A stretch of 24,512 nucleotides of DNA, taken from IMG/VR virus record IMGVR_UViG_3300044701_003679, positions 1-24,512 of that record; one strand, 5' to 3'. Source of the stretch: a virus. Numbering within the stretch: the first letter of the stretch is position 1; each line of letters opens with the position of its first letter. The position numbers and the translations under genes were made by a program. This document shows positions 14,072-21,902 of the stretch, piece after piece. The notes under the pieces are model-generated. The model saw only the letters and a list, made by a program, of their open reading frames with translations. It was not told the origin of the DNA and searched no databases.

Positions 14072-14144
14072 TTTGGTGCAAAGTGTTGGGGCATGGGGTA
14101 TCGCGCTCGGGGGTTCGTAGCCTGGGACAGCAGCCTTGTGCGGC

Positions 14145-14471
14145 ATGTTGGACCATCACATCGATGGCTCCCTCCTTTGCTCGAAGCGCACGGCCAAGCT
14201 GAGATTTCGTCAGGGGATCCTGGATTCCTGGGGCGGGGCGTGCGCGTATTGCGGCGCTCCGGCAGGGACGTTGGATCACGTCCGCGCTCGGCGGCGCGGC
14301 GGTGCCACGGTGCAGCGGAATCTCGTCGCGGCGTGCGCCTGCTGTAACCGGGCCAAGGGCTCGGAGGAGTGGACTTGCTGGTTCCGGAGCCAAGCGTTCT
14401 GGGATAGCACTCGGGAGCAGCGGATCTGGTGGTGGACTCAGACCCCACTGGATTTACCCCTCATTGCCTAG
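14145..14471 (+). CDS. HNH endonuclease
   Basis: The protein has 108 residues from the ATG at 14145 (MLDHHIDGSLLCSKRTAKLR); a TTG at 14136 would add three. It is on the plus strand inside a minus-strand packaging block. The HNH fold is clear: first zinc pair CAYC, catalytic LDHVRARRRGGAT, then NLVAACACCNRAKGSEEW with the second zinc pair, and a Trp-rich C-terminus (CWFRSQAFWDSTREQRIWWW) typical of the cyanobacterial HNH subgroup I recall. HNH proteins near terminase genes can cut DNA for packaging in HK97-like phages, but the reversed strand and AP2 neighbour fit a free-standing homing nuclease better. It converges on the AP2 gene with an 18-bp overlap at the 3' ends. Confidence 0.88.
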   Translation: MLDHHIDGSLLCSKRTAKLRFRQGILDSWGGACAYCGAPAGTLDHVRARRRGGATVQRNLVAACACCNRAKGSEEWTCWFRSQAFWDSTREQRIWWWTQTPLDLPLIA

Positions 14472-14726
14472 GTCGTTGATCAACGCGAAGTCCCCGATGA
14501 TCCGCAGCGCCGCCTCGTTGTAGGCGCGGGCGGCTTCGAGCTCGGTGGCGTAGTTGCCTAGGTAGTAGCGCTGGCCTTTGTGAGTCAGGCAAGCGCGGTA
14601 GGGGTGGGTGGGCGTGCCCTTGGTGACGCCGCGGAAGCGGGAGAACTTGCCGCTGGGCAACGGCCTGCGCGCCTGGGACAGGTAGAAGTCGCGGTCTGAG
14701 AGGCGCTTGCGGTAGTAGCTCGGCAT
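14454..14726 (-). CDS. AP2-domain DNA-binding protein
   Basis: This 90-residue protein starts at the ATG at 14726 (MPSYYRKRLSDRDFYLSQAR), one base after the terminase stop. A TTG at 14741 inside the terminase gene would add five residues. The single AP2 domain is clear: SRFRGVTKGTPTHPYRACLT, then GQRYYLGNYATELEAARAYNEAALRIIGDFALIN, with the YLGNYATELEAARAYNEAA core. AP2 domains in phages and cyanobacteria occur mainly as the DNA-recognition part of HNH homing endonucleases. Here the AP2 gene and an HNH gene lie tail to tail on opposite strands, as if the two functions of one such enzyme had been split and one part inverted. A role as DNA-binding partner of the HNH is inference. Confidence 0.88.
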   Translation of the reverse strand: MPSYYRKRLSDRDFYLSQARRPLPSGKFSRFRGVTKGTPTHPYRACLTHKGQRYYLGNYATELEAARAYNEAALRIIGDFALINDLGNEG

Positions 14727-14727
14727 C

Positions 14728-16209
14728 TCAGATGTGGGCAAAGAAGCCGGCTGTGTTGGGCACCTCTGGGATGAGGTGGCAGGCGAAAGCTAGGGCCATC
14801 ACCGTGTCGTCGTGGGCGCCGGAGGCGGCTTCGCGGTTGCCGGATTCCTTTTGCTGGAAGGCGCGGAGCTCGTCGCTGATCACGCCCTCGGGGAAGATCA
14901 GCTCGTCGTGCTCCATCAGGAACAGGATCCGATCTGTCGCCACGATCTTGCTGGGGCGACTGGTGTTAAAAGTTTCGATAGCGTAGTTGGGCAGGATGTT
15001 TGACAGCGCCTCTGCGATTACGGCGCCCATTGCCTGCTTCTCCACGATTACCCGCTCCGGAAGGTAATCCTCGATGAGGCTTTTGACGTGCTTCAAGCTG
15101 TACTCGGTGCTGCGACCGTTCTCGCGGTACATGCCCACGACCTCGTAGGGCTTTTCGGTGATGTCCAGGACGACCGCTGTGAAGTAGTCGTTGCCGCCGG
15201 CGTTGGGGTCCACGCCAATCACGTAGGTGCGACCGATGGAGCCGCACTCGCGCCAGTGGCCTCGGGCGGCGCGGCGCACCAGATCCGAGGGGAACACCTG
15301 GGTGTCAGTGGCGCCAAACGCCAGCTCGTACTCGGAGTCCCATGCGGCTTGGGTCATCCGGCGCGACTCGCGGGTGTTGCGCGCCCAGTCCGGGTCGTGG
15401 CCGTAGAGCGGATGCTGGCTGTAGTGGATCGCGACGCGGTTCCAGGAGTCCTTGACCTCGGCGAGGCGGGCGTTGAGCTCCTCGATGCGCCGGCGCCGGA
15501 CGTACTCGTACCAGTCGGCTGGCGTGCCCTGGTGCCAGAGCTGGCCGAACCAGTCGAGCTCGGTGTCGGGCGTCGAGGTGACGATCACCTTGGCGTTCTC
15601 GCCCACCATGGACAAGGTGGGCATGGCGCCCCGGTAGATCTCGGCGGCGCCGTCGAGGAAGGCGCCTTCGTCCATGAACAGGACGGAGCAGCTGGGGATA
15701 CCCCGCGCTGCGCGGGGCGACGCGGGTAGGAAGTACAGGGTGCCCCGGCCTTCGATGGCGATCTGGGTGTTGCTGTCTGTCAGGTAGCGGATGGATTCGC
15801 CCTCGATGCTGTTGGCCATGGCGCGGACGCGGCGGCCGAGCTCGGAGGCGTCCTGCTGGGTCTTGGAGAAGACCACGGCGGCGAAGCCGCGCTCGGTGAG
15901 GGCACGGCAGAGCAGATAGGAGCACACCGTCTCGGAGGCGCCCATCTGGCGGGACTTGTTGATGATCGTGTTCGGGTGCTCGTTGATCGAGCGCACGAGC
16001 TCGACTTGGTAGGGGTATGGGTCGAAGGGGGCGACGGTGCCGCCGGTGCGGATCCAGGTGCGTCGTGCGAACGACGGCCAGTCCTCGACGCCGGGGAGCT
16101 TGGTGACGCGCACGCCGGGGTCGAAGTTGGCGGAGCGGGCTTTGCGCTTGGCCAGTTCGAGCCGGAGCTTGTCGGCGCGGCGTTGGAGCTGGGCGAGGGA
16201 GGCGGTCAC
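14728..16209 (-). CDS. Terminase large subunit
   Basis: The protein has 493 residues and a GTG start at 16209 that overlaps the small-terminase stop as GTGA. It is the ATP-driven DNA packaging motor with nuclease. The ATPase part has an adenine-binding YPYQVELVR near 66-73, a Walker A variant KSRQMGASE at 85-93, Walker B VLFMDE at 176-181, and the coupling motif VTSTP at 210-214. The nuclease part has the RNase H-like acids: Asp 334 in VIGVDPNAGG, Glu 390 in VIVEKQAMG, and Asp 467/468 in GAHDDTVMALAFA. Length is normal for the family and all key residues are present. The gene is followed directly by the AP2 gene, not the portal, which points to an insertion. Confidence 0.95.
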   Translation of the reverse strand: MTASLAQLQRRADKLRLELAKRKARSANFDPGVRVTKLPGVEDWPSFARRTWIRTGGTVAPFDPYPYQVELVRSINEHPNTIINKSRQMGASETVCSYLLCRALTERGFAAVVFSKTQQDASELGRRVRAMANSIEGESIRYLTDSNTQIAIEGRGTLYFLPASPRAARGIPSCSVLFMDEGAFLDGAAEIYRGAMPTLSMVGENAKVIVTSTPDTELDWFGQLWHQGTPADWYEYVRRRRIEELNARLAEVKDSWNRVAIHYSQHPLYGHDPDWARNTRESRRMTQAAWDSEYELAFGATDTQVFPSDLVRRAARGHWRECGSIGRTYVIGVDPNAGGNDYFTAVVLDITEKPYEVVGMYRENGRSTEYSLKHVKSLIEDYLPERVIVEKQAMGAVIAEALSNILPNYAIETFNTSRPSKIVATDRILFLMEHDELIFPEGVISDELRAFQQKESGNREAASGAHDDTVMALAFACHLIPEVPNTAGFFAHI

Positions 16210-19381: not shown

Positions 19382-19792
19382 TTAGCCCCTACCCCTCAGC
19401 AGGTAGCGAAGGGTCGTGGGATCCCTGTCGTCGTCTGAGTCGAGGCCGGGCAGCGGCTCGAGGGCGACGAGGAGGTTGAGCAGGTACTGGTCCATGCGGG
19501 CCAGGTGGGTGGCTGCGTCCACCCATTCGGTGTCGATCTCGTCCTCGGAGTCGATCAGCTGTGCGTTGTTCAGCAGGACGCTGGTGTTGAAGCTGCGCCA
19601 GAGGACGAGGACGAAGCCGACGAACTGCTGGAAGGTCCGATCACAGAGCTCACCCTTGGTGAGTTCGGTGTGGAGGAGGCGGACCAGCTTCTGGTTGCGG
19701 GGTTCGAGCTCGTCGTAGCGGGGGTAGAGCTCGCGGATGGAGGAGTCCGCGAGCGCTTCGAACAGGGCTTCCGGAGAGTCGGGGATTTGCAT
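19382..19792 (-). CDS. Hypothetical helical acidic protein
   Basis: The frame has 136 residues from the ATG at 19792 (MQIPDSPEALFEALADSSIR). The frame is open 12 codons further upstream from a start at 19828, but the ATG gives a better N-terminus. It is mostly helical: ELYPRYDELEPRNQKLVRLLH, then FQQFVGFVLVLWRSFNTSVLL, then WVDAATHLARMDQYLLNLL, with an Asp-rich stretch (LDSDDDRD) before a basic end. The VGFVLVLW stretch is hydrophobic but short for a membrane span. No family is recognised. Upstream lies a non-coding stretch with a plus-strand terminator. Confidence 0.65.
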   Translation of the reverse strand: MQIPDSPEALFEALADSSIRELYPRYDELEPRNQKLVRLLHTELTKGELCDRTFQQFVGFVLVLWRSFNTSVLLNNAQLIDSEDEIDTEWVDAATHLARMDQYLLNLLVALEPLPGLDSDDDRDPTTLRYLLRGRG

Positions 19793-19885
19793 CGGACTGG
19801 TCCGGCTACACCAGCGTATGAGGGGCACTCCCGTGGAGAAGGGAGCGCTGGGCGCCAGTGGTTGGGCGTGGGAGAATGGTTGTGC

Positions 19886-19923: not shown

Positions 19924-19954
19924 GGACCTGGGGGTGAGAGCCCAGGTCCTTTTT
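19924..19954 (+). terminator. Strong intrinsic terminator on the plus strand with no obvious gene in front
   Basis: There is a perfect 9-bp stem (GGACCTGGG / CCCAGGTCC) with an 8-nt loop, followed at once by TTTTTC. On the minus strand there is no T-tract, so it acts on plus-strand transcription. It lies in the non-coding gap 19793-19961 and implies a short plus-strand transcript. Confidence 0.85.
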
Positions 19955-19961
19955 CATGGAT

Positions 19962-20165
19962 TCAGTTCAGGTGAGCTGCGATCCGTGAGCGCAGATGTTC
20001 TGAACGTTGGCGAAATGTGGAGTACTCCACTGTTTCGCAAAGCCATTGCTGCGTGGCTTCATCTGTACTGTCCAAGATGATGTCGAGCGCATCAAAAAGC
20101 AGACAGAGATCGTCACCCCCAAGGTCAAGGGTGAAGGAGTGAGAGGCACAGGGGGTAGGCAGCAT
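19962..20165 (-). CDS. Small acidic hypothetical protein
   Basis: This 67-residue frame starts MLPTPCASHSFTLDLGGDDL, 11 nt after the stop of the Csx16-like gene. It is helical and acidic: DLCLLFDALDIILDSTDEATQQWLCET in two pieces, then FRQRSEHLRSRIAAHLN. Base composition is lower in GC than most neighbours. It is likely co-transcribed with the Csx16-like gene, so a linked function is possible. It is not recognised. Confidence 0.65.
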   Translation of the reverse strand: MLPTPCASHSFTLDLGGDDLCLLFDALDIILDSTDEATQQWLCETVEYSTFRQRSEHLRSRIAAHLN

Positions 20166-20176
20166 TGACGGACTGA

Positions 20177-20470
20177 CTAGATAGAGCGGACTCGGTAAGT
20201 CACGAGCTCGGCGCCGGCGGCATCCATCTCCTGGATGGTGATGTTGCCGCGGAGGAAACGCTCGCGGGAGGGGCGATCAAGGCCGGGGACGTTGACCTCA
20301 GTGACGCAATCGGCGAAGGCGGCAAGCCAGTAGGGAACGGTCCCGTAGACGTGCTTGTGAGCAATGTCGAGAGGGGCGACGTGTTCGAGGACAGGAGCCT
20401 TGATGCCCTTGTCATGGAGCCAGTCGATCACTGCTGGGTTCTTCGAGATGATTACGGCGTTTGAGGTCAT
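20177..20470 (-). CDS. Csx16-like protein (type III CRISPR accessory family, possible ring nuclease)
   Basis: This 97-residue protein starts at the ATG at 20470 (MTSNAVIISKNPAVIDWLHD). A longer frame to 20683 runs through repeat-rich non-coding sequence and is not counted. The pattern matches Csx16 (VVA1548) as I recall it: an opening beta strand plus NPAVIDWLHDKGI (about 11-23), VYGTVPYWLAAFADC (41-55), an aligned LD/RP region, then ITIQEMDAAGAELVTYRV (77-94). Csx16 proteins occur with type III CRISPR systems and have been predicted by comparative genomics to degrade cyclic oligoadenylate signals. In a phage, that would be an anti-defence function, by analogy with viral AcrIII-1. No cas genes are present here. 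The function is inference; the family match is from memory. Confidence 0.6.
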   Translation of the reverse strand: MTSNAVIISKNPAVIDWLHDKGIKAPVLEHVAPLDIAHKHVYGTVPYWLAAFADCVTEVNVPGLDRPSRERFLRGNITIQEMDAAGAELVTYRVRSI

Positions 20471-20683: not shown

Positions 20684-20715
20684 AAAATCGCGCGCTAGAT
20701 GTAGAAACTAGCGCG
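20684..20715 (-). terminator. Probable intrinsic terminator after the DUF932 gene
   Basis: On the minus strand, CGCGCTAG and CTAGCGCG form a perfect 8-bp stem with a 9-nt loop starting 10 nt after the DUF932 stop, followed by CGATTTTGTG. The U-tract is short, so termination may be partial. Confidence 0.55.
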
Positions 20716-20724
20716 ACTAACGGT

Positions 20725-21801
20725 TTATACGAGTGCCAGACAGGCTTCTCGGGCTCGGGCAATTCGTCGAGATGCGTCACCACCCCACAGGGACTCGAGG
20801 CGGGCACGGGCGCGCTCGGTTTCGTCCTTCGCACGGCCGGCGTCGTGGGTCTCGAACTGGGTGATGGCGTTGAACAGGCCGTAGGCCGTGCCAGGGATCC
20901 CCTGGATTGAGCGGATGCCCAGGCCCGTGTCACCGGTGTAGTGGCTGCGGATGATTCCGATCTCGGGGAGGTCGTTCAGCGCGCGGTCTCGTTTATCGCC
21001 GGTGACCTTGTCCTTGATAGGGATGGCGAGCTTGTCGGCGTAGGTGGCTTCGAGAACGCGGCGGGCGACCTCGGCTGTGAGCTTGGTGTGGGCCAGGTCG
21101 CGGAGCTCGTCGATGGAGCGCCGGAACGACTGGCGTTCGAGATCGATGAGATGCGGCAGCCGCTCTGCAAATCCGGTGACGGAGGTTGTGTGCTTCATGC
21201 GCAGGCCGTGTCCTTCGTTGGAGGCGCGCGTCGCTGCTTTGCCGGTGAGGTAGCTGAGCTGATTGGCGCAGGCCAGGCGGACGTCGGAGAAGAACACCCC
21301 GAAGGAGCTGGAGCCGTCGAAGGAGTTGAAGGCGTGGAGGTAGCGGCGGACGCGGTCGCCGGGGACGACTTCGTCCTCGACGCGGATCGAGGCGGTGGCG
21401 AAGACTTTGCGGCCGTCGCGGATTGAGAGAACGTTCTCGATCTCGATGTCCTCGCGCAGGTAGTCGAGGAGGTTGATCAGCGAGGAGTTCTGGACCGGGG
21501 TGTAGCCCGAGCCGTGGATGCCGAGGAGCTGGTTGGTGTCGCTGCGGACGATGGAGCAGTGCTCGGGGGATTGCATCGGGCCGTCGGGGCCCATGAAGAA
21601 GGCGGGGCGCTTGTCGGCTGACCAGTTGAGGCCGGCGATGGCGAAGGCTTCGGAGGCCGAGGCGTTCTCGGTGATCATCGTGCCGACGCGGCCGATCAGC
21701 GGGTTGACGGCGTAGCCGCGGTCTCGGTAGCGGCCGTAGACCATGGGGCCCTTGCCGTCGGCGGCGTAGGCGGTGGTGACGCGGTTTGCGGTGAAAGTCA
21801 T
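20725..21801 (-). CDS. DUF932 / TIGR03299 phage-plasmid protein
   Basis: The protein has 358 residues from the ATG at 21801 (MTFTANRVTTAYAADGKGPM). A GTG at 21867 would add 22 residues of Arg/His/Ala-rich sequence unlike the family, so the ATG is preferred. The protein follows the TIGR03299 pattern: an N-terminal block with AIAGLNWSADKRP, a central RSDTNQLLGIHGSGYTPVQN, then a helical DNA-contact-like region (RRYLHAFNSFDGSSSFGVFF; SDVRLACANQL). It ends with GTAYGLFNAITQFETHDAGR. Such proteins are widespread in phages and plasmids, and their role is not settled. A promoter candidate lies about 100 bases upstream and a terminator follows, so it may be its own transcription unit. Confidence 0.85.
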   Translation of the reverse strand: MTFTANRVTTAYAADGKGPMVYGRYRDRGYAVNPLIGRVGTMITENASASEAFAIAGLNWSADKRPAFFMGPDGPMQSPEHCSIVRSDTNQLLGIHGSGYTPVQNSSLINLLDYLREDIEIENVLSIRDGRKVFATASIRVEDEVVPGDRVRRYLHAFNSFDGSSSFGVFFSDVRLACANQLSYLTGKAATRASNEGHGLRMKHTTSVTGFAERLPHLIDLERQSFRRSIDELRDLAHTKLTAEVARRVLEATYADKLAIPIKDKVTGDKRDRALNDLPEIGIIRSHYTGDTGLGIRSIQGIPGTAYGLFNAITQFETHDAGRAKDETERARARLESLWGGDASRRIARAREACLALV

Positions 21802-21902
21802 TGCATGGGGTGAGAGAGCAGCGGCGAGCGCTGGGTGGATGAGGGCGCGTTGATGACCGAGGCGCACCCCTCGGGAGGACGGGCGTGCGGCCCACCTAGG
21901 AG

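Follow-up and report, generated by a model that had tools for sequence, protein, structure and literature searches.

A viral DNA fragment carries a gene for a 97-residue protein that is homologous to Csx16, with a similarity beyond chance, and that belongs to a clade of viral proteins in which residues invariant in ordinary Csx16 have been replaced. The fragment, an IMG/VR record carrying terminase, portal and major capsid protein genes, is 24,512 bases long, and this whole stretch is called the window here. The best explanation, to which we give about even odds (0.5), is that the gene encodes an accessory Csx16-superfamily (putatively CARF-like) protein that would remove a host nucleotide defence signal during infection. 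Phage-borne Csx16 has already been published and is not itself new. What is new is what this clade has changed: the replaced motif residues, an HxHV motif, a four-residue insertion and a long branch.

Family membership and distribution

The original prediction described a product carrying NPAVIDW, VYGTVPYWLAAFADC and EMDAAGAELVTYRV; the ORF is real (Table 1), and the motifs are present as quoted. It also likened the product to Csx16, a claim on which the profiles divide. PF09652 (Cas_VVA1548, Csx16) matched the protein with 30.4 bits (E=4.6e-7), above the Pfam gathering cut-off of 25, and the match covered almost the entire protein and profile; the PADLOC Csx16 profile also matched (E=7e-8). 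The NCBI Csx16 equivalog, TIGR02620, gave only 20 bits, below its cut-off of 46.35. Two features of that equivalog are likewise missing, namely the [TS]RHxGA motif after strand 1, which the clade lacks, and a location in a type III CRISPR locus. NPAVIDW, which aligns with the RHPGAIEW of Csx16, lacks the conserved Arg-His. All 40 rows of a combined alignment matched PF09652, while two clade relatives scored 22.9 and 24 bits in a six-frame search, so that the clade straddles the cut-off of 25. Searches of PHROG and of PDB sequences with the 97-residue protein retrieved no match.

The clade comprises 28 viral contigs, the window and 27 others from IMG/VR. Twenty-six IMG/VR contigs were retrieved with the first profile, and one more (L134/L166) through its terminase and a wider profile. 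No relative was found in GTDB bacterial genomes in a search limited to the clade's own patterns. Csx16 with the ordinary motif was present in 17 further viral contigs (L189-L191, L193-L194, L196-L199, L204, L206, L207, L210 and L212-L215), three of which have terminase genes near it (L190, L193 and L199). This brings the total, window included, to 45 viral contigs. A tblastn search of a phage collection matched only Methanobacterium virus Drs3, in two records, where the protein is annotated as Cas_VVA1548. An earlier survey of 28,114 phage genomes detected Csx16 in two of them (Hoikkala et al. 2025, PMC12409355). Given the 17 further contigs and the terminase near three of them, phage-borne Csx16 is wider than published: two genomes stand against the 45 contigs reported here, which include one clade with rebuilt conserved residues.

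The prediction that no cas genes lie near was borne out. Ten cas and CARF proteins, used as tblastn queries, matched none of 153 viral sequences, window included, and matched 34 out of 40 bacterial Csx16 loci; this is a similarity search with gammaproteobacterial queries, which could miss distant cas genes. A Pfam scan of those window genes that were scanned likewise detected no cas gene. The survey of phages for stand-alone copies that had been proposed thus found the gene in 28 clade contigs with cas genes undetected.

Csx16-like proteins also occur on plasmids. Among its conjugation genes, Allomeiothermus silvanus plasmid pMESIL02 encodes a single protein (L016, 7638-8423) in which two Csx16-like domains lie in tandem; the motif His is retained in the first, and the second has diverged. 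Csx16 with the RH motif is encoded on Paenibacillus polymyxa pSC2 (L017, 7728-8276) and on the archaeal plasmid P-10H_0 (L044, 5995-6288), with no cas gene annotated within the stretches shown, and these may be plasmid anti-defence copies.

In phylogenetic trees, the 15 clade sequences included formed a monophyletic group with 100/100 support, whose stem is 1.7-2.2 changes per site long. The clade adjoins viral Csx16, separate from the CRISPR-locus group, with weak support for deeper placement and a CRISPR-locus sample that was almost all Pseudomonadota. RH-type viral Csx16 proteins are intermediates, with 34-38% identity to clade member L134. Pairwise dN/dS was 0.05-0.25, which shows that the protein is maintained under purifying selection. 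It is therefore highly improbable, unless the alignments are artefacts, that the ORF is spurious or decaying and present by chance, a reading for which only small size and non-essentiality would speak: it would have to account for 28 contigs, for these ratios and for 37 columns invariant across 8 divergent rows.

A variable slot in phages of probable cyanobacterial hosts

The host is probably a cyanobacterium, since the nearest relatives of the window's capsid and portal proteins are those of Synechococcus phage S-CBS4 (55.6% and 40.5% identity) and the nearest relatives of its terminase are those of phages of Cylindrospermopsis and Nodularia; to judge from the closest phage proteins, a picocyanobacterium is most likely. 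S-CBS4 is a 69.4-kb phage of Synechococcus CB0101, and the longest gene-carrying clade contigs are near it in size (70-72 kb). The annotated stretches of S-CBS4 that were read hold no DUF932 or Csx16 annotation, and tblastn with the Csx16-like protein gave no S-CBS4 match. The photosystem gene family PF00124, taken as a host marker, was absent from 12 relatives, and megablast of the window against phages and plasmids gave no match, and hence neither a spacer nor a close relative among them. Between the terminase and portal genes, reading of the sequence suggests an HNH-type ORF (14136-14471, plus strand) and an AP2-like ORF (14454-14741, minus strand).

Among phages related by their terminase, the Csx16-like gene lies between the DUF932 gene and the 148-residue ORF (Table 1). 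The same slot is occupied by an unrelated small ORF in L108, L109 and L120, and by an HNH gene in L127, and it is almost empty in L145, L152, L155 and L159, where the gap is -23 to 22 bp. No PF09652 match was found anywhere in the contigs of 13 Csx16-negative records, these eight included, and each of six positives of 60-72 kb contains exactly one. On the terminase tree, the presence and absence of the gene requires at least two changes. Such a pattern is typical of cargo that a phage can do without. Phage cargo often consists of counter-defence genes, and an accessory counter-defence role is supported because the slot holds other genes or nothing in sister phages. The small ORFs of L108 (6184-6435), L109 and L120, which encode 82-109 residues unrelated to Csx16, are candidates for alternative cargo or counter-defence genes.

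The slot also bears on a somewhat unlikely alternative, in which a Csx16-derived nucleotide- or RNA-binding protein serves the phage outside defence, for example by regulating expression beside the DUF932 gene. Wherever the neighbourhood is covered, the gene adjoins DUF932 in an otherwise syntenic region, and the long stem and the replaced motif suggest a changed function. However, sister phages that retain DUF932 and the flanking genes lack it, which makes it dispensable, and unrelated cargo also occupies the slot.

The gene had been credited with its own regulatory region. There is indeed a 254-bp gap upstream with a hairpin, conserved in the nearest relative, but a search for a sigma-70 promoter found none, and the gap is about 57-142 bp in most other relatives. 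The hairpin lies inside a 31-bp block identical in L087 and probably sets the Csx16 unit apart from DUF932. The terminator-like stem-loop past the 67-residue ORF is also conserved in L087. Together the two hairpins bracket the unit formed by the Csx16-like gene and the 67-residue ORF, and the stem-loop is followed, in minus sense, by a TCATCCACACGGACAGCGCTGT block shared with the nearest relatives. As for the predicted co-directional partner, the 67-residue ORF is real, with homologues in L087 and in L091-L093. It is missing, however, from most relatives that carry Csx16, and we reject it as an obligate partner.

Table 1. Features of the window discussed in the text
Feature	Position	Strand	Basis or remark
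Csx16-like protein, RH-less phage subfamily (PF09652)	20177..20470	(-)	97 aa, ATG start, 20470..20177
K10-N11 (S-K-N-P), in place of Csx16 Arg-His (R8-H9)	20438..20443	(-)	Alignment-column comparison
H38-K-H40-V41, gained by the clade at the Csx16 Gly-Asp position	20348..20359	(-)	H38 in 15/15, H40 in 14/15 clade rows
R69-E-R-F-L-R-G75, Csx16 R72-G73 region with 4-residue insertion	20246..20266	(-)	Alignment
DUF932 protein (PF06067), upstream anchor of the slot	20725..21867	(-)	Family match and synteny
148-aa ORF, downstream anchor of the slot	19382..19828	(-)	Comparison with relatives
67-aa ORF, lineage-limited companion, no known family	19962..20165	(-)	Downstream of the Csx16-like gene
Hairpin CGCGCTAG-N9-CTAGCGCG	20691..20715	(-)	Directly past the DUF932 stop
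Terminator-like stem-loop past the 67-aa ORF	19924..19949		One found; shuffles mean 0.8, weak alone

Replaced residues and predicted structure

Residues were compared in the 40-sequence alignment, which consists of 25 rows of ordinary Csx16 from bacteria and viruses and 15 clade rows. Three positions are invariant in the former and replaced in the latter: His9 by Asn (15/15), Gly11 by Ser or Ala (15/15) and Gly73 by Asp, Glu, Gln or Thr, mostly Asp or Glu. Arg8 (24/25 Csx16 rows) is most often Lys in the clade, His29 (24/25) is Tyr in 11 out of 15 rows, and Gly38 (23/25) is His in all 15. The clade has also gained a second His two residues past H38, the four-residue insertion and the invariant residues W48, E58, R66 and R71, while W15, V41, G43, P46 and R72 are retained.

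The comparison set was chosen in part by patterns containing the RH motif, and the His is also kept by sequences found without that pattern, namely L015 and L042-L045, retrieved by tblastn, and L189-L191 and L193, found independently of patterns. It is not absolute in Csx16, because one of the two tandem domains of the Allomeiothermus plasmid protein lacks it. Judging from its conservation, the RH motif may be catalytic in Csx16.

The AlphaFold2 monomer of the Csx16-like protein was confident (pLDDT 95.1, pTM 0.83), and a model of canonical Nitrosomonas europaea Csx16 was equally so, with its elements in nearly the same order. Going by the strand listing, H38 and H40 would fall where strand 3 begins and face the motif that follows strand 1. 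The best PDB matches of the window model were Cad1 CARF domains with cA4 or cA6 (Z 4.3) and the ring nuclease Sis0455 with substrate (Z 3.9), low values close to those of unrelated Rossmann folds, and a structural search of BFVD gave no match below E=0.1. For the canonical Csx16 control, serine resolvases came top, with ring nucleases below them (Z 4.0-4.7). Comparison with Csx16 and ring nucleases thus gave a Csx16-like order of elements but weak ring-nuclease and CARF matches (Z 3.9-4.3), which are consistent with a CARF-like site and no proof of one.

Possible function and comparison with known systems

The gene was originally proposed to encode a phage ring-nuclease anti-CRISPR. The homology to Csx16, the stand-alone phage location and the accessory pattern agree with this, whereas the replacement of Csx16-invariant residues, the motif His among them, and hosts that rarely carry CRISPR do not. 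In its ordinary form, in which Asn11 and the new His or Arg residues stand in for the lost motif and the protein cleaves cA4 to shield the phage from type III CRISPR, we consider the proposal unlikely. It has in its favour homology to a family whose cA4-specific ring nuclease activity is proven (PMC12409355), the conservation of W17, V41, G43-x-x-P46 and R69, and the putative type III system reported for Synechococcus lacustris Tous (PMC9361551). Set against these are the loss of H9, G11 and G73 (25/25 each in Csx16), G38 and H29, the score under the TIGR02620 cut-off and the rarity of CRISPR in picocyanobacteria, the likely hosts (PMC9361551, PMC11265339). Because the clade has replaced residues invariant in ordinary Csx16, cA4 cleavage cannot be deduced from homology alone.

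A remodelled nucleotide-signal protein, either a sponge or an altered nuclease, fits better than a standard anti-CRISPR ring nuclease. The lineage apparently derives from ordinary viral Csx16 with a [TS]RHxGA motif. In the course of remodelling, Arg and His would have been lost from this motif, four residues added to the RG loop and the HxHV motif acquired. The present protein may have kept the ability to bind a cyclic oligonucleotide, as a dimer with a Rossmann-type site, and the bound signal would be either sequestered or cut by a relocated catalytic set. We infer the dimer, the ligand binding, the counter-defence role and the identity of the signal, cA4 or another. Counting against this explanation, the changes affect just those parts of the sequence from which the ligand could have been recognised, the structural Z-scores are low and near those of unrelated Rossmann folds, and the likely hosts seldom carry CRISPR.

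A doubtful extension is that the clade has been retargeted, having lost the cA4-cleaving site and now sequestering or cleaving a different cyclic-nucleotide alarm (CBASS-like or other) in picocyanobacteria. If so, it would suggest that these bacteria, which are largely without CRISPR, possess a nucleotide-signalling defence as yet unrecognised. More generally, if the protein of this rebuilt clade, which occupies an accessory slot of probable cyanophages, acts on a nucleotide signal, it would offer a handle on the signalling defences used by picocyanobacteria, a group believed to be poor in defences and in CRISPR.

Among known systems, the viral ring nucleases AcrIII-1 and AcrIII-2 are small proteins shown to remove cA4 (PMC12409355, PMC12751052). 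We found no sequence relationship between the window protein and AcrIII-1 (viral Crn2) or AcrIII-2 (viral SAVED), and an AcrIII-2 entry (9r8s) matched the window model only at Z 3.0. Csx15, a CARF-family relative that binds cA4, cuts it very slowly and has not been seen in phage genomes (PMC13148439), gave no sequence match to the window protein; together with phage cyclic-nucleotide sponges, it is a model for reading a member without the usual conserved residues as a sponge. CRISPR-locus Csx16, the only form proven by experiment to be a cA4-specific ring nuclease (PMC12409355), shares with the window protein the full-length PF09652 match, W15, V41, G43xxP46, R72 and a similar predicted order of elements. 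Unlike the window clade, it has R8, H9, G11, H29, G38 and G73 intact and cas genes near. Viral RH-type Csx16, the group nearest the clade in the trees, resembles it in standing alone in phage or viral contigs and in its VxGxLP and often MDxxGA motifs, but keeps [TS][RK]HxG and, nearly always, RG.
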